Part shown: positions 3,169 to 63,032 of the stretch, piece by piece
Layout of the letters: every line of letters starts with the position of its first letter
How positions within the stretch are numbered: position 1 is the first letter of the stretch
Source: Lycium barbarum
Lineage: Eukaryota; Streptophyta; Magnoliopsida; Solanales; Solanaceae
Reading direction: 5' to 3'
Assembly (NCBI RefSeq): GCF_019175385.1
Contig: NC_083343.1
Location: forward strand, 52,722,457 to 52,786,456
DNA: 64,000 nucleotides
Translations under genes and position numbers: made by a program
Notes under the pieces: generated by a model
Databases searched by the model: none
What the model saw: only the letters and a program-made list of their open reading frames with translations
What the model was told of the DNA's origin: nothing

Positions 3169-6100
3169 TGTCACACCCCAATCCCGACAGGGTGTGATGG
3201 GCACCCGACCCCATATCTGGAGCCGAGCGAACCCACTGACTCTTATTACATACATAAACTCTTGAATCACTTAAGAATAAAATACATAGTAAGCTCTCCA
3301 AATCTTTTTTCATAAGTAAAGTCTATCATCATATAGGACCCGTGACATGAACATAATAACATATTTACTGGCGAAGCCATGTACAAAGTTGACACTCTAT
3401 ACCCACGACTCTGTCTGCAAAGTCTCTAACATCGAAAATAACATCATGGCTCATATACTCTGACTCAGCAGCGCTCCAGAACAAGTGGAGTCTACCGACC
3501 CCGCTGGAACGTCTTCTATGCTAGCTTCACTCGTCTGGGTGTACCTGCGCGGCATGAATGCAGCCCCCGAAGAAGAGGGGTCAGTACGAACAATGTACTG
3601 AGTATGTAAGGCAAGAGTAATAACATAAGATCATGGTAGAAGACATAGAGAATAGTATATAGTAAGAACATAACTTGTACCTCTGCTTGCCTCCTAGGGC
3701 AGATATCAAGTAAGCTAACTTTCCCTTTTTGCAACGACATATACACATTTACATGTAAACTGCCCAACCATATAGGTACGGGGTACTTCTGTCTGAGCAT
3801 ATCATGGAACAAAAGAGTAACCTGAACATATGAGTGCCCTGGGGGCGGATGCCATGCATGCTTTATCTGGTCATGTCATATCATGTCGTATCATATCATA
3901 TCATGTCATGTCATATTATATCATATCATGTCATATCATAGCGTGTCACATCATATCATGTCATATCCTATCGTGTCATATACTGTCGGGTCATAGCATA
4001 GCACCGAACAATGTCGGCTCGCCCACATAGCACCGAAATACATCGGCTCGCCCATATATCCCGCGACCAAGCATCCCGCGTCCGGGATGGTAAGCCAGCT
4101 GACCATGTGGCAATGAAACATGTTTCCCTTCCAATCCCCATGTATCCTTTCCCCCCACCCCATGTACATATTCATATCTCATATACATATGTCATATAAG
4201 CATGCAGGAGAGCCCAAAGAAAATCATGTATCCATCGGAGTGACGTAAAGTCGGTGACCTCCGATTACATTATGGAATAACCGTGATCGCTTTGTCTCAC
4301 CTAGAAGGAACGAGTATTTTAAGGCGAGACTATCAACGGAGAATGGCATTAGAAGAAAACATAGTATGAAATCATGGGCATCATAGAGATCAATTCATGT
4401 GCTTTGAAATCTTTAGAGAATAACGTCACGACCAAGGAATAGAATTAAAGATCATGAACTAGTTGGGCACTTTCATACTCACATTGAATTCTTGACTTAA
4501 GACACTTGGTAATGGAATCATTCTTGTCATACTTATCATGGACATATTCTCTTCCTTACATCATCATTATCATTATTATCATAGAAATATTCTCCTTGGA
4601 ATAGTTACAGTACTTGTCACTTGATAAACGGAACAATAAGGAAAATCCGGGAACAATGGCCAACCTCGGGTCAAATGAGGCGGCGTACCAAATTTACGTA
4701 CATTACATTTCATGACGTCACTCGTGGGGGTTTTAAGGTAGTCAGGTCATATTTATGCAAGTTCTAGATGCTTCGGAGGTTTTTCCAACATTTCGCACAC
4801 TTTCTAATTCAATTCCATTGAATGAAAAGGAGAAACTTTAGGTGCGGATTCCGGAGAATAGAGTTGTCCCCGAGGCTCGTATCCAACCTAGTATTCCTAA
4901 GACATGCCAAGCAAGAAAGGATATAACCTTACATACCTTTTACCGCTCCTTATGCTACTCCAAATTCACGTTGCAAATCCGCCAGAATCTACAAATTGGT
5001 CATATTTACCAAACCTTATTTAGCGCATCTAGAAGTTGAATCTTAAGGTAACATTTATCTACCGAAATTTCGGCAGCACTTCCCCTATAAATACACCATC
5101 TCCAAAACTTCAACTTAGCCAATTTAATCAACAACAATCCGGGAATTCAACCCGGCCAAATTATCAACAACAATGCCAACAATCATAATAACAATTTCAA
5201 TTAACATACTACTTCCTTCAAGACCTTCCAAGTCCAACAAAAACAATAACAACCCTATAATTTATATTCCAACAACACCATACTGACAACCTTATATGCC
5301 ATACATGCAAGAACATCATATTCAATCTTCATAAACTTCTAGAACAAGTTTCCAACAATTACCACCTAAACTAAAATTATTAAGCATCCATTTTCCATCA
5401 TAGATTTCACTACAACAACAACCAACATGCAAGATAAAATTTGCTAACTCTTCTAGCACCACACGGCCACACATGTACACTACATATTTTCATGAGTTTC
5501 ATTCACTTCAACATACCACAACAATCGTGATACTAAGTAAAATTAATTCATCATTTCTCCACAAATGCAACTAAATTCGGCCAACACCATACTCACACGG
5601 CCACACTTCAACATTCATGTTTTCATGTTTCTCATTCATTTACACATCCTACAATATACACAAGCATCCATAACATATAAAGAAGATTTGTTCTTACCTT
5701 TTTTTCCTTCAACTTTCCTCTTGGTTAAGATTATGAATTTGTACAAATGGATGATTTTCTTGTTCCAACAACTCTTCCATGTTGTAGAGGGCCTTCCAAT
5801 TGGTGGGATTGCTAGGAGAAAATATTTTTTTGTGATCAATTTCCATGGCATTAATTTTTGGTGTCTTGGCTGAAATGGCCCTTCCCCTTTCTTTCTTCTT
5901 TGTTCTTTAAAATTCTAGAAATTTCTAGGAAATGTTATAAAATAAAGATGACTTAGTCATCTTTTAAGCTTATTCATTAAGCTTCTAATTGGGCCTAAGC
6001 CCACCCCCTTTGAATGGCCCAAATGGCCTCTTTAATTGGAAGCCCACCTTTTTTTTTATCCTACAATTTATGAAAAAGTATTTTCCAAATTCCAAATTTG

Positions 6101-6294
6101 CCCTTCGTCTTCCTCCATATTTCCACGAGTCGTATTGCGAATTTCCCTTCATGCCCTTGACCTTTCTTAATATTCCCACTTCAAAATTTTCATAAACAAC
6201 TTGTACACCAAACAAGATCAAAATTATAGTCTTGTTCTTAATCTTCCGCAATTATCTTAAATTATCCGAATGCTCAAAAATGCGGGATATAACA
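3169..6294 (-). mobile_element. Element A, 3' LTR
   Basis: Runs from TGTCACACCCC to ATATAACA, giving TG...CA ends on the minus strand. It contains the three-hairpin block (3544-3602), a TCAT/GTCAT microsatellite (about 3870-3990), the splice-donor-like motif (ACATAC at 4931-4936, read as GTATGT) and the TATA/core promoter (5061-5094, with the palindrome CCGAAATTTCGG). The ORFs shared with the other LTR (for example at 5565-5873) lack codon conservation and are chance. Confidence 0.92.
3870..3990. repeat. TCATATCATG-type microsatellite in A LTR
   Basis: An imperfect 5-bp microsatellite of ATCAT/GTCAT steps. The same tract is at about 8845-8965 in the other LTR. Confidence 0.8.
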
Positions 6295-6331
6295 TCCTCC
6301 CCCCCTTTAGAACATTCGTCCTCGAATGTTC
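6295..6331 (-). promoter_or_regulatory. Element A polypurine tract and adjoining hairpin
   Basis: On the minus strand, TAAAGGGGGGGGAGGA abuts the LTR start TGTTATATCC and is the plus-strand primer. Just upstream is a perfect 9-bp inverted repeat, GAACATTCG/CGAATGTTC (6310-6318 and 6323-6331), with a 4-nt loop. Confidence 0.88.
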
Positions 6332-7336
6332 AACTGACCTCATGGAGGGGGTCCCTTTATGTCTTGTAGTACTTCGGGAGGGGGTCCCTTTATAGTCGCC
6401 CTTTTCTCCATGTCCATTCCATATCTGTTGTCCTACTTTCCTTACTATGAAACTCGTGGATCCTTACATGAGTCCTCATTCCATGTCATGGGTTTCTTTT
6501 ATAGCTGCTCTTTCCATTATACCCGTTCCTTATCCTTTACCTTATGATCCTTATAATCGAACTCTTTGACTTTTCGTGAGTCACCGCTCCATGTCATAGG
6601 TTTTTCTAACTCCCTGTGTCACCTCATTATCCTTATTCTTTCCGGGTCCTTCCTTTTCTATTATTGTCTCGTCACCGCACCTTAACGGAAGCCATGTCTT
6701 AGTACGCAATCCTTACTTAATGATTCAATGTAGCCGTAGGCTATTTCTTTTTCCTCAGGTCTATCTCTTAGTATACTTTATTTTGCTTCTACTCTTCTCC
6801 CAAGTATTCGTGCGACACGCCGACATATTTTAAACTCTTATTCCAAGCTAATAGATTTCCTTTTCTGACACTTGATAGTGTTGCAATTTCTTTTTAGGTC
6901 TAATATAGTATGATCTCCCCCCCTTTAGGGGGCTCCTTATATACTAACCGTTTTCGAGTACCTTCCTCTTCTTGCTATTTCTTCATATGAATTCTAAAGC
7001 TCGTGAACTATTCCTTTGTTTAATTAATTCCTTCCTTGTCATAGTGCCGGTTACTGGAACTCTGAGATTCACCTATACAATCATCTTGGAATATTCTACA
7101 TCTTCACATGTAGATATATAATTACTATCAGCTAGCCCGCAAAGTACGTCCAAATGCTGTTCAAGCCTATCCTAATTTTAGGGCTGTGATGCACTCCCTG
7201 TCTCTTTACCGAGCTAATCCACCTTGTCTTACGCGTCCTCTTAAGGTTTCCAGCCATCCCATATACTCTAGTTTTCCTTAGGCTACGCTAATCTCCCATT
7301 TGTCCCTTATGTCTGAATATGCAGAATTTCTTGTAA

Positions 7337-7435
7337 ACTTCCCAGGGGGTCACCCATCATGAAATTTCTCCCACCTGAGCACGCTTAACCCAAAAACTTC
7401 ACTGGAATTCGGTGTCTTAATGCTGATATTTTCGC
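7337..7435 (-). other. 5S rRNA-derived sequence inside element A
   Basis: On the minus strand this region is collinear with plant 5S rRNA. It starts ATATCAGCATTAA and CACCGAAT (5S: ATACCAGCACTAA, CACCGGAT), has the same 48-nt span to GTTAAGCGTGCT (identical to the box A region), and continues to GATGGGTGACC and CCTGGGAAGT (box C region, with CCC for CTC between). The middle (intermediate element) has diverged. It is not an intact gene. It is in the element's sense orientation. The 5S comparison is from general knowledge of the plant sequence. Confidence 0.85.
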
Positions 7436-8045
7436 TTCCGCTTCCTCACATGACCTTTATTACATGTTCTGGAGCAAGTCGACGTCTTACAGGTCCCGAA
7501 ACATTTGCGTAACTCGTCCTTTCTTTTACAATTACGGTTTTACCCTTTTGGTTTCCGATGTTCATCTTCCGCCTGCGTGTATGGCTACCTCCTGTTCTTG
7601 TCTTCCAGATTCTCAATTGTAGCGATCTCACCTTCGTTGCCACGCCAGACCCATAGGTCCTCTAGAACAACACATCCCATATATCGTCTGTTTATGGCAT
7701 TCCCTTTTTCCGCGTCTCTTTCTATTAAACGTATCCATTCTGGTAGAACTTCGTCTACCACTCCTGCTATTTAAAATCAGTACATAGCAAATATCGACAA
7801 TACTTCGCAAAACATATCGCTATATGACATATTCCAGCCATCAGAACTTCCAGTTCCAAGAAATAAAACAATTATCCAGGCTTACCTTTGTAACTTGCCA
7901 TCTCGTCACTTGTCTTCTTTCGTCACCACTAGGCGGCTGCGAAAATTCGACGGTTAGTATAAGGAATCTCATTTCCTATGACTTGGCTTTGTCGCACGAT
8001 CTAAGACAGAAAGAAGGTCAACAATTCCTAGATGCCCCGCAACCT

Positions 8046-8128: not shown

Positions 8129-8140
8129 GCTCTGATACCA
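8129..8140 (-). promoter_or_regulatory. Primer-binding site, element A (initiator Met tRNA)
   Basis: The minus-strand TGGTATCAGAGC is complementary to the 3' end of plant initiator-Met tRNA. It lies 3 nt inside the LTR end at 8144. Confidence 0.92.
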
Positions 8141-8143: not shown

Positions 8144-11100
8144 TGTCACACCCCAATCCTGACAGGGTGTGATGGGCACCCGACCCCATATCTGGAGGCG
8201 AGCGAACCCACTGACTCTTATTACATACATAAACTCTTGAATCACTTAAGAATAAAATACATAGTAAGCTCTCCAAAAAGTTTTTCATAAATAAAGTCTA
8301 TCATCATATAGGACCCGTGACATGAACATAATAACATATTGACTGGCGAAGCCATGTACAAAGCTGACACTCTATACCCACGACTCTGTCTGCAAAGTCT
8401 CTAACATCGAACAAAACATCATGGCTCATATACTCTGACTCGGCAGCGCTCCAGAACAAGTGGAGTCTACCGACTCCGCTGGAACGTCTTCTATGCTAGC
8501 TTCTCTCGTCTGGGTGTACCTGCGCGGCATGAACGCAGCCCCCGAAGAAGAGGGGTCAGTACGAACAATGTACTGAGTATGTAAGGCAAGAGTAATAACA
8601 TAGGATCATGGTAGAAGACATAGAGAATAGTATATAGTAAGAACATAACTGGTACCTCTGCTTGCCTCTTAGGGCAGATATCAAGTAAGCTAACTTTCCC
8701 TTTTTGCAACGACATATACACATTTACATGTAAACTGCCCAACCATATAGGTACGGGGTACTTCTGTCTGAGCATATCATGGAACAAAAGAGTAACCTGA
8801 ACATATGAGTGCCCTGGGGGCGGATGCCATGCATGCTTTATCTGGTCATGTCATATCATGTCGTATCATATCATATCATGTCATGTCATATTATATCATA
8901 TCATGTCATATCATAGCGTGTCACATCATATCATGTCATATCATATGGTGTCATATCATGTCGGGTCATAGCATAGCACCGAACAATGTCGGCTCGCCCA
9001 TATATCCCGCGACCAGGCATCCCGTGTCCGGGATGGTAAGCCAACTGACCAGGTGGCAATGAAACATGTTTCCCTTCCAATCCCCATGTATCCTTTCCCC
9101 CCACCCCATGTACATATTCATATCTCATATACATATGTCATATAAGCATGCAGGACAGCCCAAAGAAAATCATGTATCCATCGGAGTGACGTAAGGTTGG
9201 TGACCTCCGATTACATTATGGAATAACCGTGATCGCTTTGTCTCACCTGGAAGGAACGAGTATTTTAAGGCGAGACTATCAACGGAGAATGGAATTAGAA
9301 GAAAACATAGTATGAAATCATGGGTATCATAGACATCAATTCATGTGCTTTGAAATCTTTAGAGAATAACGTCATCACCAAGGAATAGAATTAAAGATCA
9401 TGAACTAGTTGGGCACTTTCATACTCACATTGAATTCTTGACTTAAGACACTTGGTCATGGAATCATTCTTGTCATACTTATCATTGACATATTCTCTTC
9501 CTTACATCATCATTATCATTATTATCATAGAAATATTCTCATTGGAATAGTTACAGTACTTGTCACTTGATAAACGGAACAATGGCCCACCTCGGGTCAA
9601 ATGAGGCTGCGTACCAAATTTACGTACATTACATTTCATGACGTCACTCGTGGGGGTTTTAAGGTAGTCAGGTCATATTTATGCAAGTTCTAGATGCTTC
9701 GGAGGTTTTTCCAACATTTCGCACACTTTCTAATTCAATTCCATTGAATGAAAAGGAGAAACTTTAGGTGCGGATTCCGGATAATAGAGTTGTCCCCGAG
9801 GCTCGTATCCAACCTAGTATGCCTAAGACATGCCAAGCAAGAAAGGATAAAACCTTACATACCTTTTTCCGCTCCTTATGCTACTCCAAATTCAAGTTGC
9901 AAATCCGCCAAAATCTACAAATTGGTCATATTTACCAAACCTTAATTAGCGCATCTAGAAGTTGAATCTTAAGGTAACATTTGTTTACCGAAATTTCGGC
10001 AGCACTTCCCCTATAAATACACCATCTCCAAAACTTCAACTTAGCCAATTTAATCAACAACAATCCGGGAATTCAACCCGGCCAAATTATCAACAACAAT
10101 GCCAACAATCATAATAACAATTTCAATTAACATACTACTTCCTTCAAGACCTTCCAACTCCAACAAAAACAATAACAACCTTATAATTTATATTCCAACA
10201 ACACCATACTGACAACCTTATATGCCATACATGCAAGAACATCATATACAATCTTCATAAACTTCTAGAACAAGTTTCCAACAATTACCACCTAAACTAA
10301 AATTATTAACCATCCATTTTCCATCATAGATTTCACTACAACAACAACCAACATGCAAGATAAAATTTGCTCACTCTTCTAGCACCACACGGCCACACAT
10401 GCACACTACATATTTTCATGAGTTTCATTCACTTCAACATACCACAAAAATCATGATACTAAGTAAAATTAATTCATCATTTCTCCACAAATGCAACTAA
10501 ATTCGGCCAACACCATACTCACACGGCCACACTTCAACATTCATGTTTTCATGTTTCTCATTCATTTACACATCCTACAATATACACAAGCATCCATAAC
10601 ATATAAAGAAGATTTGTTCTTACCTTTTTTTCCTTCAACTTTCCTCTTGGTTAAGATTATGAATTTGTACAAATGGATGATTTTCTTGTTCCAACAACTC
10701 TTCCATGTTGTAGAGGGCCTTCCAATTGGTGGGATTGCTAGGAGAAAATATTTTTTTGTGATCAATTTCCATGGCATGAATTTTTGGGGTCTTGGCCGAA
10801 ATGGCCCTTCCCCTTTCTTTCTTCTTTGTTCTTTAAAATTCTAGAAATTTCTAGGAAATGTTATGAAATAAAGATGGCTTAGTCATCTTTTAAGCTTATT
10901 CATTAAGCTTCTAATTGGGCCTAAGCCCACCCCCTTTGAATGGCCCAAATGGCCTCTTTAATTGCAAGCCCACCTTTTGTTTTGTCCTACAATTTATGAA
11001 AAATTATTTTCCAAATTCCAAATTTGCCTTTCGCCTTCCTCCATATTTCCACGAGTCGTATTGCGAATTTCCCTTCATGCCCTTGACCTTTCTTAATATT

Positions 11101-11220
11101 CCCACTTCAAAATTTTCATAAACAACTTGTACACCAAACAAGATCAAAATTATAGTCTTGTTCTTAATCTTCCGCAATTATCTTAAATTATCCGAATGCG
11201 CAAAAATGCGGGATATAACA
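8144..11220 (-). mobile_element. Element A, 5' LTR
   Basis: The 3077-bp partner of 3169-6294. The three-hairpin block is at 8519-8578, the microsatellite at about 8845-8965, the donor-like motif at 9857-9862 and the TATA/core promoter at 9987-10020. The right end ATATAACA is followed directly by the duplication TGATG. Confidence 0.92.
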
Positions 11221-11891: not shown

Positions 11892-14800
11892 TGTCACGAC
11901 CCAGCCCCGTGGGCCGCGACTGGTGCCCTTCTGGGACACCCCAAACGAACTCACACCCAGATCATCGTAATTCAAACTCAACCGAACTCAGCATACGTTA
12001 TTCGAACTCAACATCACAATCAGACATCTACCGAACACTTATTCTAAGCAGTCGCCCGTACAGATCAGACAAATTTACAAATCAGAAAGGAGGCGGAATA
12101 TACTTCGCCAAATTTCACACACACACATCAGAGGGGTGGCGGAATGTACATCGCCCCCAAATGCATACACACACATACAAACTCAGAGGCCGTCTTGGCC
12201 ATAGTAGCGTACGGGCCACTCAGGAACGCAAAACAGACTCACATGCGAACACACCGGACCCACGACCCACAAATCTGACTACAGTCCTCTAGACAAAACA
12301 GAACATAAGAACATAGGACGGGACAGGGCCCCGCCGTACCCACTCATCCAAATATACAGAATACAGACACAACAAAAGATATGTACCAATGGCTAGGCTC
12401 CGAATCAAAGGGGAGCTCTCCAACACAGCAGAATGAGTAGCCTAGACTGAAGGACCACCCAAACGAGCTTCTGTACCTGCGGGCATGAAACACAGCCCCC
12501 GAAGAAACGGGGGTCAGTACGGGAGAAGTACTGAGTATGTAAAGCAGAAGGTACAGAAATCACAAACACAGCTGGAGTCAGGAAGAACAAACACACCAAC
12601 ATCGTAAACAAAGCAAACCTGCGCGGGAGGCGAACGTACAAATGCAAATCAAATCATGTATAGGGTTTAGGAACGTGGTCACCCCCCCGACGCTGGTGCC
12701 ACAACACATCATAACTCCAGAAGTTTTCAAATCTCCATACAGTCTCCAGACACATCATATCACACACACATCATATCATCAGAACATATCAAATGCCATA
12801 TCACATCATAACTCCATAAGCGGTAACCGGCCCTATGGCGAGGCCTCGGAAACCGTAACACATCATAACTCCCGAATATATTTTAGCGCGCACGATCACA
12901 AAGTCGGCCCGGGTACCGACGAACGAAATCACAGCAGACAGCACGAACAGAGTAGTTCAGAAACCATATGCATATCAAAAATAACTTGTCGGACTCAACA
13001 TATAGTTTACGTATAGGTATATACTGACGCCAGAAGGCTCGGAGCAGGAATCAGATTGATCAAAGTTTATGTGTAAAAGTTACGAAGTTCCAAACTGCCA
13101 AATTCTCAAGAAAAAGCGTTCATAAGTCATTTTCCGAAAATCTCACATCATTCAGAGGGGAAAACGTACATTAATGGCATAGGAAGTTTCAAACGCATCT
13201 TTGGTCATAAACAGACGGTCGCAGATTATAACGGACACAAACGGACCAAACAAACCGAATAAGGGGAGCCTCGGGGCTCGCAGGCCCGCCTCGGGTCAAA
13301 TTGAGGCGGCGGACACAAATCACAGACTTTCGGCTCCATAGAGCCATCTACGAAATTTTCGAGGAGTTTCGGACACAACAGCACAAGTTATGGAGGTACG
13401 AACATTCTTTTAACCAAATGCGACAAAAAGGGTTCAATCGCGCTGAATGAATAGTGCTCGAACTTGAACTTCGATTTCCAAGAGCAGGGTTATTCCCGAG
13501 GGGCCGATCTTAACCTAGTATGTCTAGGACATGCCAAAAGAATGATAGGTAGGCTTTACATACCTGGTTGGCGCCTTACGCTCCTCAAATCGCAATTCCC
13601 GTTTCGTCCAGAAACTGCAAATGGTCACTTTTACCAGTTACTATTCATGAGAATTAACATTTTAGTCTTTGGGCTATATTTGGCTACCGAAATTTCGGCA
13701 GCACTTCCCCTATAAATCTAACACCCCCGAGACTTAGCTCGGCTCAAAATACAACAACAACAACAGCCCAAACATCATTAAACCATACAAACCACAATCA
13801 TACTACATTAACTTCAAAATTTCACTTTAATACATAAGTTGGCAAATTCTTGATTCAACTTCAAAATTCCAATTCTATTTCCACATTAGTCCATTCATTC
13901 ACTCATTCACAATTATTCAAACACACCACCAACAAGTTCCAAACCACAAGCAAACATCCCCAAAGTTCACTACTTTCCAATTTTCATTCAAAATACCAAA
14001 AGTTACGACGAACGCTCTAACTTGCGTAGTTTCATTCCAAATTCGTTATCATCAACCATAAATCTTATTTAAGGTCTTTAGTATCATAAATATACTATGA
14101 TATACACAAATATACCAAAGGTATACACTTTCCGATAACGTCCGAAATTATTTTCTAACACCAACTCAATTCTTTAATCAATCCTTTACAACATAAGGAT
14201 CACAACAACACATTATTCAAACTAAACAAGATAAAATTCTTATGCCTTGCACCTCATTCCCTCACGGCCAAACACACCCTTTATACACACACACACCATG
14301 CACAAACACAACACCATCCCACAATCCTCATGCAACATCAATCACTATCACATATATGTCCATTTCATAACATTAAAACATAAAAATCTTACCTTTTTCT
14401 TGAATTTCCGACTTGTCGCAAACGTCGCTCTTTCTCCAAACTACTTGTATCACGTCGGAGAGCGTCTTGAGTACTTCACAATTATGTAAAACTTGAGATT
14501 TTTGAATCAACAACAAAACTTGGATGATTTTTCTTTTTCTCCTAACCCTTTCGGCCGAGAGCCTTTATTTGATGCCCTTTTTTTTTTTTTTTTTTTTGAT
14601 CTTGATTCTAGATAATTCAAAGGGTTACATGATATATATCCACTATGTTGATCATGTGCATGGCACATGATCATTTAACAAAGGGGCTTGGGCCATGAAT
14701 ATGGCCGGCCACCCCTAGCTACTTGGGCCACAATTTTTTTGTTCCATTTCTTGGCCCGATTCATTAAACGTCCCGTTTTGTAATTCCCGAAACTAATTTC

Positions 14801-14950
14801 CAAATTTACCCTCGGCCTTCCCCGAGGTCTTGACATCAATGATTTCATAATCAACATGAGCATAGCAACTTGAATCAAAATATCTCCTCAACACACACAA
14901 GTCTTATTTATTTCTTGATTTCCCGTTATACGAAAATACGGGACATAACA
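11892..14950 (-). mobile_element. Element D, 3' LTR
   Basis: Runs from TGTCACGACCCAGCC to GGGACATAACA. It contains the three-hairpin block (12477-12535), a CGGCGGGG.../CCCGTCC hairpin near 12318-12340, the TATA/core promoter (13686-13719), the donor-like motif near 13558-13563 and a T-tract (about 14579-14597). ORFs of 133 and 124 codons repeat in both LTRs but have no recognisable domain. Confidence 0.93.
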
Positions 14951-16281: not shown

Positions 16282-16382
16282 ACTTCCCAGGGGGTCACTC
16301 ATCCAAGAATTGCTCTGGCTTGAGCACGCTTAACCCTGAAACTTTTACACATTTTGACGTGTTAGGGCTGATATAATTTCGC
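16282..16382 (-). other. 5S rRNA-derived sequence inside element D
   Basis: On the minus strand this is collinear with plant 5S rRNA: ATATCAGCCCTAA (5S ATACCAGCACTAA), then GTTAAGCGTGCT (identical) at the same 48-nt spacing, CCAGAGCAATTCTTGGATGA (5S CGAGAGTAGTACTAGGATGG), GTGACC and CCTGGGAAGT. It lies downstream of gag in the element's sense orientation. The 50-60 nt before it also resemble element G (ACAAAGGTCGT). Confidence 0.87.
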
Positions 16383-16654
16383 CAATTTCCCCGTACGACC
16401 TTTGTCACGTAATTTTAGGCCAAACGGGGTCTTAGCAAATTTTTCGGAAATTTTTCGTAGCGGGTCCCACTCTGACCCAAAGAGGTCGTTTGCTTTTCTG
16501 GTTGTGTGGTCTATCGTTCTAGCCTTCCAAATCCCATATATTTTCCTCCCACATGTACAGATAACTGCCTCGGATATTTTCATTAATTCGGATTCTTACC
16601 CTACCTTTACTGACACACACAAAAAAGAATATCGCATAATACTGAGGTACAAAC

Positions 16655-18127
16655 CTACCATTGCACATATTCATTAAACAAAAGGGTTAGTAGTATACCT
16701 GGGTCTGTGTCTGGGGGTGCCTCTGGGTCCTGCCGACCAGTCAAAGCGTAGATGCGGTTCGAGGGACCGCTAGAATCTGAACCCCCACCACGGCCTCTAC
16801 CGCGGCCCGCTGGTGCTGGCATACCTCGCCCCGTAGAGCGCGTGGCCGAAGGGGTAGATGACGAACCAGCAACGGATCTCATCGGTGGTGCTGCGCTACC
16901 GGAACCGCCTGCCCACGGACAATCCCGCATGATATGGCCCTGGCGGCCACAAGCAAAACAGGCCCCTGTGACCCTGAAGCACTCACCTGGGTGCGATCTT
17001 CCACAATATGAACACGGGGGCATAGGTGGCCTAATCTGACTGGGACCCCTGCTCGCCTGAGGACCTGGGGCTCTGCAACTCTGGTCTGCCCTGGACGGTC
17101 CTGCGCCATCAAATCTCTTACTAACAGACTGTGTGTCCCGGCCTGACGGAGGAAAGTACCCACTGGACTGATACTGAGGCTGCCCGCCCCGAGAATCTCC
17201 AGAATAACCCGCTGATCTGGCCCTCTTGGGCCGTCTCCCATCATACTCTCTGCTGGGCCGATCTGCTCGGTGCCGGTTCTCCATCCCCTGGGCGTAGGCC
17301 TGTAAACGGGCAATGTCCATATCTGTCTGTAATGACACCGCCATACAGCCGTCAATCAGGTAACGATCCAACCCCATAACATATCTATGCATCCGATCTG
17401 TCATATCTGCCACCACGGCAGGGGCATATCGGGCCAGGGAATCAAACTCCAAATTATATTCACGAACGCTTCGACCCCTCTGCTGCAGATGCAAAAATCG
17501 ATCAGCTCGCTCCCGTCGTAACTCTGGGGGCAGAAAGTGGCGGGTGAAAGCAGTCACAAACTGATCCCACATAGCTGGAGGAGCACCCTCACCCCGGGAT
17601 AGCTCCCGAGTCTCATACCAATGCGCGGCAACATCCCGAAGTCTATGCGAGGCTAGCTCAACCGACTCGGTCTCTGAAGCCCTGACCAAGTCTAATGCAC
17701 GCCGCATCCCCCGAATGAAGTCATGGGGGTCCTCGTCGGGCTTAGACCCGAAAAACTCTGGAGGGCCGCATAACAAGAACTCCCGAACTCTCAGGCTGTC
17801 CCGCCTGCCCTCATCATCATCGTCCCTCCGCCCGCGACTGCGAGCCTGTCCGGCTACAATCGTGGTCAACAACTGTACAGCCTCCCTCAGGGTCCTATCC
17901 TCCGCCCCTGGCTGAGGAGCTGGAGTCTCAGGAGCGGGTACGCGGACCTCTGGAGCTGCTGAGGGTCCCGCTCCAGGCTGTACTAATGGGGGTGTAGCAG
18001 ACCCCTCAGAATGAGGTGCAACCTCAGGCAGATCATAGACACGAGCCCGAGTAGCCCGTTGTGCCTGACTGGTCTCTCCCACCTTCGCCTTGCCCTTCTG
18101 AGCGGCCGTTGCCTTCTTCGGAGGCAT
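16655..18127 (-). CDS. gag: Gag polyprotein of element D (intact)
   Basis: Encodes the retrotransposon Gag, which forms virus-like particles and packages element RNA. I start it at MPPKK (18127); four extra upstream codons (MFAV) are open but the CAG lying 2 nt before this ATG looks like a splice acceptor. Numbering from the upstream Met, there is an Ala/Pro-rich N-terminus, a Gag core (about 140-260, with HFLPPELRR and GRSVREYNLEFDSLARYAP), then two zinc knuckles: CSYCGRSHPGEC (about 376-387) and a classic CX2CX4HX4C, CFACGRQGHIMRDC (394-407). An Arg/Gly-rich tail ends at DPGILL plus about 10 unrelated residues, exactly where protease begins in element T. Length is about 490 aa with no stops or frameshifts. 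Confidence 0.92.
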   Translation of the reverse strand: MPPKKATAAQKGKAKVGETSQAQRATRARVYDLPEVAPHSEGSATPPLVQPGAGPSAAPEVRVPAPETPAPQPGAEDRTLREAVQLLTTIVAGQARSRGRRDDDDEGRRDSLRVREFLLCGPPEFFGSKPDEDPHDFIRGMRRALDLVRASETESVELASHRLRDVAAHWYETRELSRGEGAPPAMWDQFVTAFTRHFLPPELRRERADRFLHLQQRGRSVREYNLEFDSLARYAPAVVADMTDRMHRYVMGLDRYLIDGCMAVSLQTDMDIARLQAYAQGMENRHRADRPSREYDGRRPKRARSAGYSGDSRGGQPQYQSSGYFPPSGRDTQSVSKRFDGAGPSRADQSCRAPGPQASRGPSQIRPPMPPCSYCGRSHPGECFRVTGACFACGRQGHIMRDCPWAGGSGSAAPPMRSVAGSSSTPSATRSTGRGMPAPAGRGRGRGGGSDSSGPSNRIYALTGRQDPEAPPDTDPGILLTLLFNEYVQW

Positions 18128-18240
18128 CACTGCAAACACAACAACGGGTCAGGTCAGAATGACCCTAATAACACAGCTCTATCGCACGATCTAAGATTCC
18201 AAAGAAAGGGCAACACAACATCCTAGATGTCCTGTAGTTT

Positions 18241-18337: not shown

Positions 18338-21300
18338 TGTCACGACCCAGCCCCGTGGGCCGCGACTGGTGCCCTTCTGGGACACCCCAAACGAACTCAC
18401 ACCCAGATCATCGTAATTCAAACTCAACCGAACTCAGCATACGTTATTCGAACTCAACATCACAATCAGACATCTACCGAACACTTATTCTAAGCAGTCG
18501 CCCGTACAGATCAGACAAATTTACAAATCAGAAAGGAGGCGGAATATACTTCGCCAAATTTCACACACACACATCAGAGGGGTGGCGGAATGTACATCGC
18601 CCCCAAATGCATACACACACATACAAACTCAGAGGCCGTCTTGGCCATAGTAGCGTACGGGCCGCTCAGGAACGCAAAACAGACTCACATGCGAACACAC
18701 CGGACCCACGACCCACAAATCTGACTACAGTCCTCTAGACAAAACAGAACATAAGAACATAGGACGGGACAGGGCCCCGCCGTACCCACTCATCCAAATA
18801 TACAGAATACAGACACAACAAAAGATATGTACCAATGGCTAGGCTCCGAATCAAAGGGGAGCTCTCCAACACAGCAGAATGAGTAGCCTAGACTGAAGGA
18901 CCACCCAAACGAGCTTCTGTACCTGCGGGCATGAAACACAGCCCCCGAAGAAACGGGGGTCAGTACGGGAGAAGTACTGAGTATGTAAAGCAGAAGGTAC
19001 AGAAATCACAAACACAGCTGGAGTCAGGAAGAACAAACACACCAACATCGTAAACAAAGCAAACCTGCGCGGGAGGCGAACGTACAAATGCAAATCAAAT
19101 CATGTATAGGGTTTAGGAACGTGGTCACCCCCCCGACGCTGGTGCCACAACACATCATAACTCCAGAAGTTTTCAAATCTCCATACAGTCTCCAGACACA
19201 TCATATCACACACACATCATATCATCAGAACATATCAAATGCCATATCACATCATAACTCCATAAGCGGTAACCGGCCCTATGGCGAGGCCTCGGAAACC
19301 GTAACACATCATAACTCCCGAATATATTTTAGCGCGCACGATCACAAAGTCGGCCCGGGTACCGACGAACGAAATCACAGCAGACAGCACGAACAGAGTA
19401 GTTCAGAAACCATATGCATATCAAAAATAACTTGTCGGACTCAACATATAGTTTACGTATAGGTATATACTGACGCCAGAAGGCTCGGAGCAGGAATCAG
19501 ATTGATCAAAGTTTATGTGTAAAAGTTACGAAGTTCCAAACTGCCAAATTCTCAAGAAAAAGCGTTCATAAGTCATTTTCCGAAAATCTCACATCATTCA
19601 GAGGGGAAAACGTACATTAATGGCATAGGAAGTTTCAAACGCATCTTTGGTCATAAACAGACGGTCGCAGATTATAACGGACACAAACGGACCAAACAAA
19701 CCGAATAAGGGGAGCCTCGGGGCTCGCGGGCCCGCCTTGGGTCAAATTGAGGCGGCGGACACAAATCACCGACTTTCGGCTCCATAGAGCCATCTACGAA
19801 ATTTTCGAGGAGTTTCGGACACAACAGCACAAGTTATGGAGGTACGAACATTCTTTTAACCAAATGCGACAAAAAGGGTTCAATCGCGCTGAATGAATAG
19901 TGCTCGAACTTGAACTTCGATTTCCAAGAGCAGGGTTATTCCCGAGGGGCCGATCTTAACCTAGTATGTCTAGGACATGCCAAAAGAATGATAGGTAGGC
20001 TTTACATACCTAGTTGGCGCCTTACGCTCCTCAAATCGCAATTCCCGTTTCGTCCAGAAACTGCAAATGGTCACTTTTACCAGTTACTATTCATGAGAAT
20101 TAACATTTTAGTCTTTGGGCTATATTTGGCTACCGAAATTTCGGCAGCACTTCCCCTATAAATCTAACACCCCCGAGACTTAGCTCGGCTCAAAATACAA
20201 CAACAACAACAGCCCAAACATCATTAAACCATACAAACCACAATCATACTACATTAACTTCAAAATTTCACTTTAATACATAAGTTGGCAAATTCTTGAT
20301 TCAACTTCAAAATTCCAATTCGATTTCCACATTAGTCCATTCATTCACTCATTCACAATTATTCAAACACACCACCAACAAGTTCCAAACCACAGGAAAA
20401 CATCCCCAAAGTTCACTACTTTCCAATTTTCATTCAAAATACCAAAAGTTACGACGAACGCTCTAACTTGCGTCGTTTCATTCCAAATTCGTTATCATCA
20501 ACCATAAATCTTATTTAAGGTCTTTAGTATCATAAATATACTATGATATACACAAATATACCAAAGGTATACACTTTCCGATAACGTCCGAAATTATTTT
20601 CTAACACCAACTCAATTCTTTAATCAATCCTTTACAACATAAGGATCACAATAACACATTATTCAAACTAAACAAGATAAAATTCTTATGCCTTGCACCT
20701 CATTCCCTCACGGCCAAACACACCCTTTATACACACACACACCATGCACAAACACAACACCATCCCACAATCCTCATGCAACATCAATCACTATCACATA
20801 TATGTCCATTTCATAACATTAAAACATAAAAATCTTACCTTTTTCTTGAATTTCCGACTTGTCGCAAACGTCGCTCTTTCTCCAAACTACTTGTATCACG
20901 TCGGAGAGCGTCTTGAGTACTTCACAATTATGTAAAACTTGAGATTTTTGAATCAACAACAAAACTTGGATGATTTTTCTTTTTCTCCTAACCCTTTCGG
21001 CCGAGAGCCTTTATTTGATGCCCCTTTTTTTTTTTTTTTTTTGATCTTGATTCTAGATAATTCAAAGGGTTACATGATATATATCCACTATGTTGATCAT
21101 GTGCATGGCACATGATCATTTAACAAAGGGGCTTGGGCCATGAATATGGCCGGCCACCCCTAGCTACTTGGGCCACAATTTTTTGTTCCATTTCTTGGCC
21201 CGATTCATTAAACGTCCCGTTTTGTAATTCCCGAAACTAATTTCCAAATTTACCCTCGGCCTTCCCCGAGGTCTTGACATCAATGATTTCATAATCAACA

Positions 21301-21394
21301 TGAGCATAGCAACTTGAATCAAAATATCTCCTCAACACACACAAGTCTTATTTATTTCTTCATTTCCCGTTATACGAAAATACGGGACATAACA
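18338..21394 (-). mobile_element. Element D, 5' LTR
   Basis: 3057 bp, nearly identical to 11892-14950. It carries the TATA/core promoter (20132-20165), the putative splice donor (ACATAC at 20004-20009, read AGGTATGT), the three-hairpin block (18923-18980) and a T-tract near 21025. The right end GACATAACA is followed by the GCCCA duplication. Confidence 0.93.
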
Positions 21395-34182: not shown

Positions 34183-34186
34183 CTTT

Positions 34187-37223: not shown

Positions 37224-38429
37224 TTAAAAAAAGTTTAGATTACCTGTGGGCGTAGGAAACAAGTGGGGATATTTCCTCCTCATCTCCTCCTCCGACTCCC
37301 AGGTCATCTCTTCCCGGTTGTTTTTGCGCCATAGGACTTTAACACAAGGCACTTCCTTAGTGCGTAGTTTCCTAACCTGCCGATCCAGAATAGTTATAGG
37401 CTGCTCTTCATAAGACAAATGCTCCGTTACCTGAATATCATTTACTGGGAATATTCTGGAAGGATCACCAATACATTTTCGCAGCATGGACACATGAAAT
37501 ATCGGGTGCACTGCCTCCAAATCGGGTGGTAAGTCTAGCTCATAGGAGACCTCGCCTATCTTCCGAATGATTTGATACGGCTCGATATACCGCGGGCTTA
37601 ACTTACCCTTCTTACCGAATCTCATAACACCCTTCATAGGCGATACCTTCAGAAATACCCAGTCGCCAATCTGGAACTCTAATGGTCGACGTCGTCTATC
37701 TGCATATGCTTTCTGTCGGCTCTGTGCAGCCAATAATCGCTCCTGAATAAGTTTTACTTTATCCACTGCTTCCTGGATCACATCTGGCCTAATTAATTTG
37801 GTTTCGCCCACATCGAACCACCCAATAGGAGATCTGCATTTCCTGCCATAAAGAGCTTTGTACGGTGCCATCTGAATGCTGGAGTGATAACTGTTATTAT
37901 AGGCAAATTCAATAAGCGGCAAATGATCATCCCAGCTACCTCTGAAATCAATAACGCAGGCCCGCAACATATCTTCTAGCGTCTGAATAGTGCGCTCGGC
38001 CTGCCCGTCGGACTGAGGATGAAAAGCTGTAATGAGGCTCACCTGAGTCCCTAATCCCTCCTGAAATGACCTCCAGAAATTTGCCGTAAACTGGGCACCT
38101 CGATCAGTAATAATAGATACAGGGACTCCGTGAAGTCTGACTATTTCTCTTATATAAGATCTAGCATAATCCTCAGCCGAATAAGTAGTCCGGACGGGGA
38201 GGAAGTGGGCTGATTTCGTCAATCTGTCAACAATAACCCAAATAGAATCGTACCTGCGTGGCGTGCGTGGTAACCCAACAACGAAATCCATATTGATCAT
38301 CTCCCATTTCCAGGCTGGAATTTCCATCTCCTGTAATAATCCACCGGGCTTCTGATGTTCAATTTTAACTTGCTGACAATTTGGGCACCAACGAACTCTG
38401 CAATATCTTTCTTCATACCGTCCCACCAA
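37224..38429 (-). pseudogene. pol (IN): T integrase core and chromodomain-like tail
   Basis: The 401-codon ORF encodes the integrase from the CC half of its zinc finger (CPNC, residues 15-18) to the end of pol. The catalytic DD35E triad is complete: D48 (NMDFVVGLP), D109 (ITDRGAQF) and E145 (GQAERTIQTLEDM). After the C-terminal DNA-binding region (FLKVSPMKGVMRFGKKGKL) comes a chromodomain-like tail, about 338-401 (VKVLWRKNNREEMTWESE), typical of chromoviruses, where it targets insertion to marked chromatin. The first nine residues are out-of-frame read-in. A 4-nt deletion near 38390 separates it from the upstream pol frame. It ends 128 bp from the LTR. Confidence 0.93.
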
Positions 38430-38749
38430 TACAAACTTCTGAGATCATGATACATTTTAGTGGAACCAGGATGAACAGAATACCGTGCATTATGCGCCTC
38501 GCCTATGATTTGTCGCCGTAAGCCTGCAACATCCGGTACACAAAATCTGCCTTCATATAATAATACCCCTTCAGGCGAAATTTCAAACGGAGTCTTTTCT
38601 TTATTAAGAGCCACATCTCTGTACTGAACCAGAATAGGATCCTCAAACTGTCGTTGCTTTACTTCTTCTATAATAGATGATTCAGCAACTGCACGAACAG
38701 AAATCACAGAATCTCTAGAATCTGCCAAACGAACTCCAAGGCTGGCCAA
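38297..38749 (-). pseudogene. pol: T pol fragment: RNase H-integrase linker and HH zinc half
   Basis: An open segment continuing the pol frame after the nonsense codon at 38750-38752. It has the usual spacer (FEISPEGVLLYEGRFCVPD) and the His half of the integrase zinc finger (EAHNARYSVHPG, YHDLRSLYWWDGMKKDI). After EFV (near 38390) the frame is lost by a small deletion, and the last about 30 codons are not pol. The apparent start is not a real initiation site: in an intact element this is inside the polyprotein. Confidence 0.9.
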
Positions 38750-40915
38750 CTAATGAATTTCACGAACCAAATCTTTCTTACCAGGTGGTACATCAGCCAA
38801 GCTGCCCATAGACTTGCGGCTAAGTGCATCCGCTACCACATTGGCTTTCCCAGGATGGTGCAGAATATCAACGTCATAATATTTCAATAATTCAAGCCAT
38901 CTTCTCTGCCGGAAATTCAGTTCCTTCTGCTTAAAAATATACTGGAGACTCCTATGGTCCGTATAAATATCAACATGGACCCCATATAAATAGTGCCGCC
39001 AAATCTTCAAAGCGTGAATCACCGCGGCCAACTCAAGATCATGAGTGGGATAATTCTTCTCATGCGGTCTGAGCTGCCGGGAGGCATAGGCTATAACTCG
39101 ACCGTGCTGCATCAACACACAGCCTATCCCAATACCAGAGGCATCACAATAGACAACATACCCGTCTGATCCTTCTGGAAGGGCTAGAACTGGAGCTGTA
39201 ATTAATTTTTCTTTCAACATCTGAAAGCTGCCCTCGCAGGCATCAGTCCACTGAAATTTTGCTGCTTTCTGAGTAAGCTTCGTTAGTGGTGCCGCAATAG
39301 AAGAAATAATTTCCACGAACTTCCGATAATATCCGGCTAACCCCAGAAAACTGCGAACCTCTGTCGGTTTAGTAGGCCTGGGCCAATTCTGCACAGCTTC
39401 AATCTTCTGCGTATCGACCCGAATACCATCTGCTCCAACAATATGCCCCAAGAATGCCACAGAAGTTAACCAGAATTCACATTTGGAAAATTTAGCATAT
39501 AATTTTTGTTGCCGAAGAATGCCAAGTACTGTTCTCAAATGATCTGAATGCTCCTTTGCTGATCGTGAATAAATCAAAATATCATCAATAAACACAATCA
39601 CGAACATATCCAGGAAAGGCCGAAATACCCGATTCATCAGATCTATGAATTCCGCTGGAGCATTAGTCAGCCCGAAAGACATCACTCTGAATTCATAATG
39701 CCTGTACCGGGTCCTGAAAGCAGTCTTCGGAATATCTGATTCTCGCACTCGCACCTGATGATAACCCGAGCGCAAATCTATCTTTGAAAAATATTTGGAA
39801 CCCCGCAACTGATCAAACAAATCATCAATCCGGGGGAGGGGATATTTATTCTTTATAGTCACCTTATTTAATTGCCGATAATCAATACACATTCGCAGTG
39901 ACCCATCTTTCTTTCTTACGAATAATGTCGGCGCTCCCCAGGGTGATGTGCTGGGTCTGATAAAGCCTTTATCCAACAGATCCTTCAGCTGCTCTTTCAA
40001 TTCCTTCAATTCAGCCGGTGCCATTCTGTACGGAGGAATAGATATAGGCTGCGTATCTGGCAACAAGTCTATAGTGAAATCTATCTCCCGTTTAGGCGGA
40101 AGACCCGGAAGATCATCTGGAAACACATCTGGGAATTCATTAACAACCGGAACAGACTGAAGAGTAGGTGTCTCGGCTGTAGTATCGTGCACCCGAACCA
40201 AATGATAAATATAACCTTTCTGAATCATCTTCTTAGCCTTAAGGTACGAAATAAACTTACCCCTCGGCGATGCTGTAGACCCGAACCACTCTATAACTGG
40301 TTCCCCTGGAAACTGAAAACGGACTACCTTTTTCTGGCAGTCAACATTAGCATAACAAGAAGCCAACCAGTCCATACCCATAATGACATCAAATTCCAGC
40401 ATATCTAATTCTATCAAATCAGCTTTAGTGCAGCGATCACATATAGTCACAGAACAATCCCTGTATACCTGCCTCGCTATAATACAATCCCCGACCGGGG
40501 TAGCTACCTCAAATGGATCTATAGGCTCAGACACTATCCCAATTTTACTAGCAACGAGCGGGGAAATATATGATAAAGTAGAACCAGGATCAATCAGTGC
40601 ATATACAGATCTGGAGAAAACTAGTAATGTACCTGTGACGACATTCGGCGAAGCCTCCTGATCCTGGCGGCTAGCCAATGCGTATATGCGGTTCGAGGGA
40701 CCGCTAGAACCCGAAGCACTGCCACGGCCTCGACCGCGTCCCGCCGACATACCTCGCCCCGCAGGGCGCGCAACTGATGGAGCAGATGATGAACCAGCGG
40801 CTGATCCCATCTGCTGAGCTACACTACCGGAATCGCTCGCCAACGGACAATCTCGAATAATATGGCCCTGACCGCCGCATGAAAAACAGGCTCCGGTAAC
40901 TCGATAGCACACCCG
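38750..40915 (-). pseudogene. pol (PR-RT-RH): T protease, reverse transcriptase and RNase H
   Basis: The longest pol segment (730 codons from 40942; the gag-pol frame is entered near 40915). Numbered from the ORF start: second zinc knuckle [14 protein letters not shown] (19-32), protease with [13 protein letters not shown] (D118), a conserved linker with [19 protein letters not shown] about 290-500 ([10 protein letters not shown] with D389; FIDDIL with D453-D454), the hinge [11 protein letters not shown], and RNase H about 590-710 (YCDASG D600; THDLELA E637; YTDHRSL D662). All catalytic residues are present. It ends at a TAG that is CAG in relatives (C-to-T). With a frameshift upstream and another after it, the polyprotein cannot be made from this copy. 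Confidence 0.95.
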
Positions 40916-42054
40916 GGATGTGATTTCCCGCAATGAGAACAACGGGGCCTGGGTGGTCTGGGCTGGCTGGGACCTTTGGCTACCTGTGAACCTAACGCTT
41001 TGGAACTCTGACCGGGCCCAGACGGTCCTGCACTGTCAAATCTCCTACCGGCTGGCTGTGTACCCCGACCTGACAGAGGAGGATGTCTGCCTAACTGCTG
41101 CTGAGGCTGTCCGCCTCGAGAATCTCCAGAATAACCTGCGGATCTGGCCCTCTTGGGCGGCCTCTTGTCCCGATCTCTGCTGGAATAATCAGCTCTATGT
41201 TGGTCTTCCATGCCCAGGGCATAAGCCTGTAGTCGGGCAATATCCATGTCTGTCTGCAATGCCACCGCCATACAGCCATCAATCAAATAGCGGTCTAACC
41301 CCATCACGTATCTGTGCATCCGATCGGCCATATCTGCTACTATGGTAGGTGCATACCGGGCCAAAGAATCAAACTCCATATTATACTCACGGACGCTCCG
41401 ACCCCTCTGCTGCAAATGCAAAAATCGGTCAACCCGCGCCCGCCGTAACTCTGGGGGCAAAAAGTGGTGAGTGAAAGCAGTCACGAACTCGTCCCAAGTA
41501 GCTGGGGTAGCACCCTCACCCCTGGATAGCTCCCAGGACTCATACCAGTGAGCAGCAACATCCCGTAGTCTATGCGAAGCCAACTCAACATACTCAGTCT
41601 CTGAAGCTCTGACCAAATCTAGTGAGCGCCGCATCCCCCGAATAAAGTCATGGGGGTCCTCGTCGGGCTTAGACCTGAAAAACTCTGGAGGGCCACATAA
41701 TAGGAACTCTCGAACCCTCAGGCTGTCACGCCTGTCGTCATCGTCATCATCTCTCGGCCTGCGTCTGCGAGCCTGCCCCGCTACTAGTGTGGTCAATAAC
41801 TGCACAGCCTCTCTCAGTGTCCTGTCCTCCACCCCTGGCTGAGGAGCTGGAGGCTCGGGTGCGGGTACTCGGGCCCCTGGAGCTGCTGATGGAGCTGCTC
41901 CAGGCTCCACCGGTGGTGGTGTAGCGGATCCCTCTGAATGGGGCACAACCTCGGGCAAATCATAAACACGAGCCCGGGTAACTCGCTGTGCCTGACTGGT
42001 CCCTGCTATCCCTGCCTTGCCCTTCTGGGCCGCCGTTGCCTTCTTCGGAGGCAT
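40819..42054 (-). pseudogene. gag: T gag, frameshifted in the zinc-knuckle region
   Basis: Starts MPPKK at 42054 (four upstream codons are also open; CAG acceptor-like site at 42057-42059). It has an Ala/Pro-rich N-terminus, a Gag core (DEFVTAFTHHFLPPELRRAR, EYNMEFDSLARYAP) and a basic/Gln-rich linker. The first knuckle begins [10 protein letters not shown], then loses frame near 40913-40916. Compared with D gag (HPGECFRVTGAC), one base is missing. The second knuckle and the rest continue in the next frame as the pol segment. The last about 29 codons to 40819 are not Gag. In this group gag and pol are normally one ORF, so I read this as a mutation. Confidence 0.92.
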
Positions 42055-42161
42055 CACTGCAAACATAATAACGAATCAGATCAGAATCATCCTAATAGCA
42101 CAGCTCTGTCGCACGATCTAAGATTCCAAAGAAAGGTAACACCCTAAATGCCCTGTAGCCT

Positions 42162-57100: not shown

Positions 57101-57297
57101 GTATGTTTTGGTACGTTATGTATGGTCTGAAAGCCCTGCCGACTTCTATGCAGTAGATATGGTTGTAGGCACCCGTGTGGAGCCACGTCTGGTAATTATT
57201 TATGTACAGGTCATTTGTATGTTGAATCTGGTAAATGAGCGCGTAGGGGGTGCCCAGCTCGGGCACTAGTCACGGGCCATGGGGATGGGTCGTGACA
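54169..57297 (+). mobile_element. Element G, 5' LTR
   Basis: From TGTTATATCCCG to GGGTCGTGACA. It holds the TATA/core promoter (55413-55450: TATAGG..., ATGCTGCCGAAATTTCGG), the putative splice donor AAAAG|GTATGT at 55571, a seven-unit GC-rich repeat (56280-56545), the three-hairpin block (56758-56817), a hairpin GGCGGG/CCCGCC (about 56949-56967) and a terminal inverted repeat GTCACG/CGTGAC. Small ORFs here are repeated in the other LTR without sign of selection. Confidence 0.93.
56280..56545 (+). repeat. Seven-unit GACCGCTGG/GACCGCGG repeat in G LTR
   Basis: Each unit has GACCGCTGGACCCT then TGACCGCGGTATG-like DNA and a short linker, about 30-45 bp in all. The GCGG and CCGC parts let each unit fold on itself. 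The same array is at about 61990-62275 in the other LTR. The 152- and 159-codon minus-strand ORFs (Arg/Ser/Gly/Pro repeats) are made of this array. Confidence 0.9.
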
Positions 57298-58983: not shown

Positions 58984-59917
58984 GGAATTTGTGTGTAGAT
59001 AGATCTGTACTCTATCATATTATGTGATTTTCTTCTTCCGGGTGTTAGTAAAAGTAAGGTAATCTTCAACCCAGTAGACCTATATGAGATAACCATAAAT
59101 ACACATATGGAAATGGACATTGAGGATTCAGAAGGGCGATACGATAATTGTATGGTTAAGACCGGGGTGGGACCCGCTACGAAATCTTTTTGAAAATCTA
59201 CCAACATCGCGATCTGCCCTGAATTGCGCGACAAAGGTCGTGTGGGGCAGTCAACGCAATTATATTGACATTACGCATCAAAACGCATAGAAGTTTCAAA
59301 GTTAAACGAGCTTGGGCCAGAGTAATTTTGGGATGGGTGTCCCCCTGGGAAGTACCCCGAAATTCTCATAAATATAGCTATAAAAGGCAAATGGGAAATT
59401 TGGAGTAACCTACAGGAAATTAGAAGTACTAAATGGTTGGAAACCTTGAATAGGTCGAGTAGGCTAAGGCGGACCCAGTCGGTAAAGAAAAAAAGAAGCG
59501 CAACACAGCTCTGTGATCAGAATAAGTTTGAGTAGATGTTCGGAAATGTTTTGGTGGGCAACATGGCAGTAAATGCATAGATAGGTATATGATGTGTCGT
59601 TCATGACTGTACCGATCCGTAGTGGGCCCCAGCGGCCAGTGTTACGATATGTGAGAGATGTTAGCTAAACAAAATTCGGGAGACAAGTAAAAGGTGTGAT
59701 ATGGAAATGTTCTGAAGTAAACGGATACTGACCTCGCCACAGTAAGGGTAGAAGCTTCTGGTACGACGATATTAAGGAAGAACAGAAAAGTAAGTGGACG
59801 GAAGAAAAAGAGATAACAGTTGTAACTTTTGGAACTCCTCGAAGGAAAGACGGGAACCTCCCCGGGTATATCAAGAGACCCCACAAGGTCAGTCTAACAT
59901 TCGAGGACGAATGTTCT
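58984..59917 (+). other. Element G non-coding region between gag and PPT
   Basis: 934 bp without coding potential, replacing pol. It shares with element D the sequence just after gag (CAGGTATACTA), a block GTGGGACCCGCTACGAAA near 59167, ACAAAGGTCGT near 59231 and the 5S-like sequence, then diverges. The end has the hairpin AACATTCG/CGAATGTT (59896-59915) before the PPT. Confidence 0.82.
59256..59353 (+). other. 5S rRNA-derived sequence inside element G
   Basis: Collinear with plant 5S rRNA: ATATTGACATTACGCA (5S ATACCAGCACTAATGCA), GTTAAACGAGCTTGGGC (5S GTTAAGCGTGCTTGGGC), CAGAGTAATTTTGGGATGGG (5S GAGAGTAGTACTAGGATGGG) and CCTGGGAAGT. Box A and box C have point changes, so it is more decayed in those boxes than the copies in A and D but closer in the middle part. 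Confidence 0.85.
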
Positions 59918-62900: not shown

Positions 62901-63032
62901 TAGGCACCCGTATGGAGCCACGTCTGGTAATTATTTATGTACAGGTCATTTGTATGTTGAATCTGGTAAATGAACGCGTAGGGGGTGCCCAGCTCGGGCA
63001 CTAGTCACGGGCCATGGGGATGGGTCGTGACA
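59933..63032 (+). mobile_element. Element G, 3' LTR
   Basis: 3100 bp, nearly identical to 54169-57297. Differences include a longer G-run in the hairpin block (62485-62551), a small deletion near 61605 and scattered substitutions. Core promoter at 61171-61207; GC-rich array at about 61990-62275. It ends at CGTGACA followed by the ATTCC duplication. Confidence 0.93.

Follow-up and report, generated by a model that had tools for sequence, protein, structure and literature searches.

A 64,000-nt window of the Lycium barbarum genome (NC_083343.1, positions 52,722,457-52,786,456 of the forward strand, assembly GCF_019175385.1), which is the whole stretch of DNA analysed here, contains three long terminal repeat (LTR) retrotransposons, designated elements A, B and C, that carry a block derived from 5S ribosomal RNA (rRNA) in their interior. 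The reading that we prefer, and to which we assign a probability of about one half, is that this block represents the internal control region of a 5S gene, captured once by a pol-less, gag-carrying and chromovirus-like gypsy lineage and possibly kept for its binding boxes at the level of DNA.

5S-derived block in element A

A first description of the window, made from its letters only (the sequence-only reading), had placed a diverged copy of nearly the whole 5S rRNA in element A, in sense orientation and in the interior rather than the LTRs of a gypsy-type element. Our analysis upheld each of these points. Smith-Waterman alignment to plant 5S rRNA extended over 103 nt without a gap and reached a score of 82, compared with a maximum of 36 among 1000 dinucleotide shuffles of the element A interior, and chance similarity was thus rejected. 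The query was a plant 5S rRNA, which is identical to the host 5S sequence at locus L111 except for position 93, where the host has C. Since nt 1-103 align without gaps, the 48-nt spacing that had been noted between two 5S motifs also holds. The block lies on the sense strand of the element between the mapped primer binding site (PBS) and polypurine tract (PPT) (Table 1).

Comparison with the Rfam 5S model RF00001, which has a gathering cut-off of 38 bits, agreed with this picture in part. With cmscan the block of element A matched over the full model (positions 1-120) at 27.7 bits, with an E of 0.00099 for a 401-base stretch and of 0.16 for the whole 64 kb; the score lies below the cut-off, and a default Rfam scan of the window gave no match at all. 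None of the three blocks has the full 5S fold or gathering score of a functional 5S gene, with 15.3 bits in B and no Rfam match in C even at E 10.

The next-best places for the 5S alignment in the window were two further real copies, those of elements B and C, which the sequence-only reading had not listed. The tail motif of the block also occurs at 16282 (minus strand) and 59332 (plus strand) with one mismatch each, where none would be expected by chance. The surrounding modules of A, B and C are homologous over about 500 nt, and a profile built from this module and run over the window with an E limit of 1 found only these three places, all three carrying the core of the block (5S nt 51-103). 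Two other elements in the window, E and F, gave no match in the same search.

Preservation of the control region boxes

Conservation within the block is unevenly distributed. Box A (nt 51-62) agrees with 5S at 12, 12 and 10 of 12 positions in A, B and C, respectively, box C (nt 80-91) at 11, 10 and 10 of 12, and the tail (nt 92-103) at 11 of 12 in each, while the 5' half (nt 1-50) retains 30, 23 and 26 of 50. The earlier statement that box A and most of box C were kept in element A is supported. The intermediate element had been described as drifted, which is half right, as four of the five bases at nt 68-72 are kept in each of the three elements. In the three-way alignment 38 of 53 columns of the core were invariant, compared with 26 of 53 at best elsewhere in the module. 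The three boxes stand at 5S spacing, as expected of a type 1 Pol III (RNA polymerase III) control region, with nt 51-103 free of gaps in A, B and C and in 20 further loci. These 20 had been chosen for varied spacers among 100 listed matches of the genome search given below, and together with A, B and C they form a set of 23 copies.

The search pattern contained box C and the AATT at 74-77; this AATT is present in all 23 copies and, being part of the pattern, is no evidence for the 20 loci. Box A lies outside the pattern and was complete (12 bases) at 16 of the 20 loci and present with 11 bases at the other four. Among six cluster representatives its mean identity was 0.872, compared with 0.65-0.67 for the flanks and nt 1-50, 0.525 for nt 104-119 and 0.495 for the spacer between box A and the intermediate element; not one of 322 twelve-column windows outside nt 51-103 reached the value of box A. 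When box C was left free between two anchors, 3591 of 4112 matches (87%) had its 12 bases exactly, and the four spacer bases just before it occurred in at least 10 states among the matches listed. Both the box A and the box C test favour copies whose anchors are intact. The block has thus kept box A, some of the intermediate element and box C, and the spacers, the 5' half and the 3' end have drifted, a pattern of preserved Pol III boxes and variable inter-box motifs like that reported for the miniature element Cassandra. Coding constraint on the core was rejected, as every sense frame of the core is interrupted by stops in A and in B; a protein search with the chance frame over the core of C gave no match.

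A module of pol-less families

The derived-core pattern of 34 positions was matched exactly 3591 times in the 1.67-Gb host genome and its reversed control sequence not once. A 25-base pattern for the core of 5S genes had 398 exact matches; the ratio of the two counts is rough, since the patterns differ in length and assembled 5S arrays may be collapsed. DNA searches with the blocks of A, B and C yielded 3408, 1036 and 2443 first-look candidates, and all of the 40 places scored for each matched. Some block copies are evenly spaced, with distances of 4978, 4963 and 4997 bases on genomic sequence C9, 5639 and 5640 on C5 and about 8.86 kb on C1, from which tandem arrays of LTR and interior can be inferred. 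The 5S-gene cores themselves form a regular array of 391-base units at 25.57-25.59 Mb on C6, with a switch of direction near 25.584 Mb, and an irregular one at 75.97-76.20 Mb on C5.

We further analysed 30 A-type, 30 B-type and 30 C-type loci with 1.5 kb of flanking sequence, which are the best-matching copies and not a random sample. Gag was found upstream on the same strand at 26 of the B-type, 28 of the C-type and none of the A-type loci. The distance between the gag match, measured from its end, and the tail motif was mostly 365 nt in B-type and 344 or 362-364 nt in C-type loci, and in elements B and C themselves the block follows gag by about 350 nt. A pol match within 1.5 kb of the block occurred at one A-type locus and at no B-type or C-type locus. 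The 5S block is thus a standing module of pol-less families, of which A is a member that is also without gag. In diverged families it is present as a single block at one site behind gag and has been mobilised with them. Element A had been called coding-free, and this holds: when the window's gag and pol frames were compared with it by tblastn, the best E was 0.61, and its interior of about 1.85 kb contains no frame of 150 codons between stops. The block is nevertheless not peculiar to one coding-free large retrotransposon derivative (LARD), to which the sequence-only reading had assigned it, since B and C carry gag upstream.

A probable single capture and a modular history

Elements A, B and C share eight bases that differ from the host 5S (nine relative to the plant 5S query, position 93 being the host's own state), and at six positions not covered by the search pattern 21 or more of the 23 copies have a derived base. 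Because the copies share substitutions that are absent from the host 5S gene, one old capture of 5S is likely, and independent captures by the three elements were rejected on the eight derived bases in common. The history of gag appears to be a different one. Element B is 80.7% identical to the pol-bearing element E over PBS and gag, after which no further match exists; the corresponding identity between C and E is 67.3%, and the similarity between B and C continues into the module, B going with C only in its later part. This suggests that pol-bearing relatives exchanged gag with these elements and that the 5S module remained in place, and gag is hence unfit as a clock for the module.

Possible function and alternative explanations

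In 5S genes TFIIIA contacts box A, the intermediate element and box C. Among the functions originally proposed for the block, a platform for TFIIIA or Pol III would fit best. Binding of ribosomal protein L5 to the RNA would be a poorer fit in view of the decay of helix I and the 5' half, though part of helices II and III is retained. A control region that acts by binding proteins on DNA would be expected to keep its boxes at 5S spacing and to let the spacers vary. With moderate confidence, we prefer a TFIIIA platform to an RNA mimic. Chromosomal copies would then bind TFIIIA, followed by TFIIIC and TFIIIB, in the manner of a 5S gene, and the RNA polymerase II (Pol II) promoter in the LTR would remain the replicative promoter. 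The occupied internal site would most likely aid the copy by keeping it open or through initiation by Pol III nearby.

For Pol III, four or more consecutive T act as a stop signal. Such a run occurs at nt 112-114, a useful place for a terminator, in 12 of the 23 copies, seven of which, including B, have no internal run; only from these would a short 5S-like RNA be plausible. Runs of at least four T lie within nt 1-103 in 15 of the 23 copies, among them A and C, which makes a full-length 5S-like Pol III transcript doubtful in most copies.

These internal T-runs are one of several observations that weigh against selection on a DNA-level control region. The upstream flank has no evident match, judged by eye, to the flank of the host 5S. 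The core equals and does not exceed the most conserved cis-sites of the LTRs, where 31 of 3436 windows reach 38 invariant columns; these windows form three peaks, and the highest covers a TATA-like stretch. Likewise, the best window outside the core had a mean identity of 0.839, near that of box A. An early comparison that used gag third positions as a neutral yardstick (139/292 between B and C; Fisher p 3.5e-6 versus the core) was confounded by recombination and was dropped. Finally, helices II and III were paired in 253 of 345 cells (0.73) compared with 0.27-0.57 in slid controls, and 47 double changes in these helices stay paired while two are broken, although they trace to few pairs (31-46 and 34-41).

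The helix data would be explained if the block acted in RNA, as a 5S mimic within the genomic RNA that binds TFIIIA or L5 and so affects export, splicing or packaging, and we regard this as an unlikely alternative. The sense orientation in A, B and C and the wide sharing of two double changes in helix III (31-46 from GC to AT, 34-41 from CG to TA) speak for it, and splicing of host TFIIIA through a 5S mimic (P5SM) is a known phenomenon. The double changes may however represent only two or three events. Helix I is paired at control level (0.45 versus 0.34-0.59 when slid), most clusters have lost pairing in the outer part of the IV/V arm, and of the 15 pairs in helices II and III B keeps nine and C eight, compared with 12 in A. 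An RNA mimic would also leave the free variation of the spacers between the DNA boxes to be accounted for.

The block might instead be a passive fossil in noncoding filler, similar between copies owing to their youth or to gene conversion with 5S genes. Many copies are indeed recent, with LTRs 96-99.5% identical, and the exact core matches of 5S genes in the genome attest a plentiful source of 5S sequence. We consider this explanation improbable, as conversion should restore the letters of the gene, whereas the derived letters persist, and youth cannot explain why the boxes are constant between clusters while spacers and flanks of the same copies differ. Least probable appears an origin from an inserted Cassandra-like element or a 5S-derived short interspersed element (SINE), with later retention of the promoter module; the boxes do show a Cassandra-like pattern and a SINE3 insertion has been proposed for Cassandra and for Ajax (Kojima, PMC10886601), but the 5' half of A is also 5S-like (30/50), beyond the core of about 70 bp in Cassandra, and no PBS-like TGGTATCAGAGC stands beside the block in A, B or C.

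Taking the captured control region further, one could see it as a selected internal organ of a gag-bearing gypsy lineage that combines a Pol II promoter in the LTR with an internal dock for TFIIIA and Pol III. Thousands of such sites would then have been amplified across the genome, several times the number of assembled 5S genes, and could serve as a sink for TFIIIA or as dispersed chromatin marks. We offer this extension tentatively and consider it somewhat less probable than not being the case. If the block was kept through the divergence of families and the exchange of gag, Pol III-type sites would be selectable even in large elements whose replication is driven by the LTR. For annotation, it should be noted that most copies of the 5S-like core in this genome are in retrotransposons, which may inflate 5S counts and the signals of fluorescence in situ hybridization (FISH) or chromatin immunoprecipitation (ChIP).

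Anatomy of the elements

The features of the elements are listed in Table 1. The PBS sequence is one that we take to be complementary to the initiator Met tRNA, and the lineage of these Ty3/gypsy chromovirus-like elements may be Tekay. No pol was found in B and C by tblastn with the pol frames of the window. In element E the reverse transcriptase domain was recognized as RVT_1 (E 1e-36), and the integrase (rve, 32.2 bits) and chromodomain (Chromo, 21.9 bits) matches lie slightly below their cut-offs. Element F carries gag and protease-like sequence.

Table 1. Coordinates of features of elements A, B, C and E in the window
Feature	Position	Strand	Remarks
Element A, 3' LTR	3169..6294	-	96.1% identical to 5' LTR; target duplication CATCA 3164-3168
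Element A, PPT	6295..6309	-	TAAAGGGGGGGAGGA directly before LTR start
Element A, 5S rRNA-derived block	7316..7439	-	RF00001 27.7 bits; 103-nt gap-free 5S alignment
Element A, preserved core (5S nt 51-103, from box A through the intermediate element and box C to the tail)	7337..7389	-	38/53 columns invariant in A, B, C
Element A, PBS TGGTATCAGAGC	8129..8140	-	exact match
Element A, 5' LTR	8144..11220	-	target duplication CATCA 11221-11225, 5 bp
Element B, 3' LTR	11892..14950	-	99.5% identical to 18338-21394; target duplication TGGGC
Element B, 5S-derived block; core 16282-16334	16282..16384	-	tail motif; RF00001 15.3 bits (251 bases, E 1.2)
Element B, gag frame (capsid and zinc knuckle), stops before protease domain	16655..18148	-	PF03732 E 7.6e-18, PF00098
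Element B, 5' LTR	18338..21394	-	PBS 18322-18333
Element E, pol-bearing relative	37224..42075	-	gag 40819-42075; protease-reverse transcriptase-RNase H 38750-41035; integrase and chromodomain-like end 37224-38444
Element C, 5' LTR	54169..57297	+	97.4% identical to 59933-63032; target duplication ATTCC; PBS 57302-57313
Element C, open part of gag, with GILLIFS as its end, ahead of protease domain	58084..58983	+	PF03732 E 4.6e-10
Element C, 5S-derived block (position approximate); core 59301-59353	59252..59353	+	homology to A/B module
Element C, 3' LTR	59933..63032	+	LTR pair identity 97.4%

Element A lies within a short array in which a GC-rich unit of 37 bp, containing CCGGAAGCGG motifs, is repeated in tandem (2994-3164, 11187-11293). 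Element C sits within the pol of another pol-bearing element, pieces of which were found by tblastn on both sides (53672-54193, 63033-64000). The 3' LTR of E seems to double as the 5' LTR for a truncated unit that has only gag (PBS 34171), giving a tandem with a shared LTR (32020-37132, 37224-45153). The LTRs of A, B and C have two strongly conserved stretches at LTR positions of about 1190-1240 and 2400-2640, one with TTTATAGGG and GCCGAAATTTCGG and the other with ACATACTCAGTAC, which resemble promoter and RNA-end signals.

Several annotated gag proteins related to that of B from Lycium and Solanum dulcamara (P0004, P0005, P0008, P0009, P0015, P0016) have a similar short tail after VVTGT or a comparable stretch, which would be the result if their gag came from an RNA in which pol is spliced out. 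Another protein (P0014, 493 amino acids, from an ENA contig of 1863 bases) has a C-terminal GILLIFS like the gag of C, and the shortened gag thus occurs elsewhere with an open frame. A palindrome at 51456-51518 resembles, on both strands, the MIR4380 precursor family (28.8 bits, far under the cut-off of 83).

Comparison with known systems

To our knowledge, 5S promoters in LTR elements have previously been described only in the LTRs of miniature elements, namely Cassandra and Ajax. Searches of an open-access collection, at the level of titles and the starts of abstracts, yielded no paper on interior 5S sequence in a gag-bearing gypsy element, a terminal-repeat retrotransposon with gag (TR-GAG) or a LARD. 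Host 5S genes are the probable source of the module and have box A, box C and some of the intermediate element in common with it; they differ by the eight shared derived bases of the module, its decayed 5' half and 3' end, and the internal T-runs of many copies. Element A, alone among the three, resembles a LARD in its long LTRs and large noncoding interior without gag or pol, and departs from it in that this interior shares homology with the module that follows gag in the gag-bearing families. B and C have the two LTRs, PBS, gag and PPT of a TR-GAG, with no pol found, and in addition the 5S module after gag, which the available text on TR-GAG does not mention (PMC10552921).

In Cassandra the boxes in the LTRs are conserved and the inter-box motifs variable (PMC10853983), as in the elements described here, and tandem LTR-internal arrays are known (PMC7215508), which in our case were deduced from even spacing. 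According to Gao et al., no family of terminal-repeat retrotransposons in miniature (TRIMs) other than Cassandra carries 5S sequence (PMC4717578). Cassandra is 565-860 bp long, and Ajax, a nemertean element of 421-434 bp, has 5S in its LTR, where the promoter portion is retained and the sequence upstream has diverged (PMC10886601). Elements A, B and C share with Ajax and the proposed TRIMp3 group that they are non-autonomous LTR elements in which the promoter part of a 5S sequence is kept. Cassandra and other TRIMp3 elements, however, are short (less than about 1 kb) and noncoding and have their 5S within the LTRs, in mid-LTR in Cassandra, and Ajax likewise has no gag, whereas here the LTRs are about 3 kb long, B and C carry gag and the 5S block is internal to a gypsy-type element, about 350 nt after gag. 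A non-autonomous LTR element bearing a 5S promoter is therefore a known kind, and what differs in Lycium barbarum is the place of the promoter, the size of the element, the presence of gag and the host lineage.
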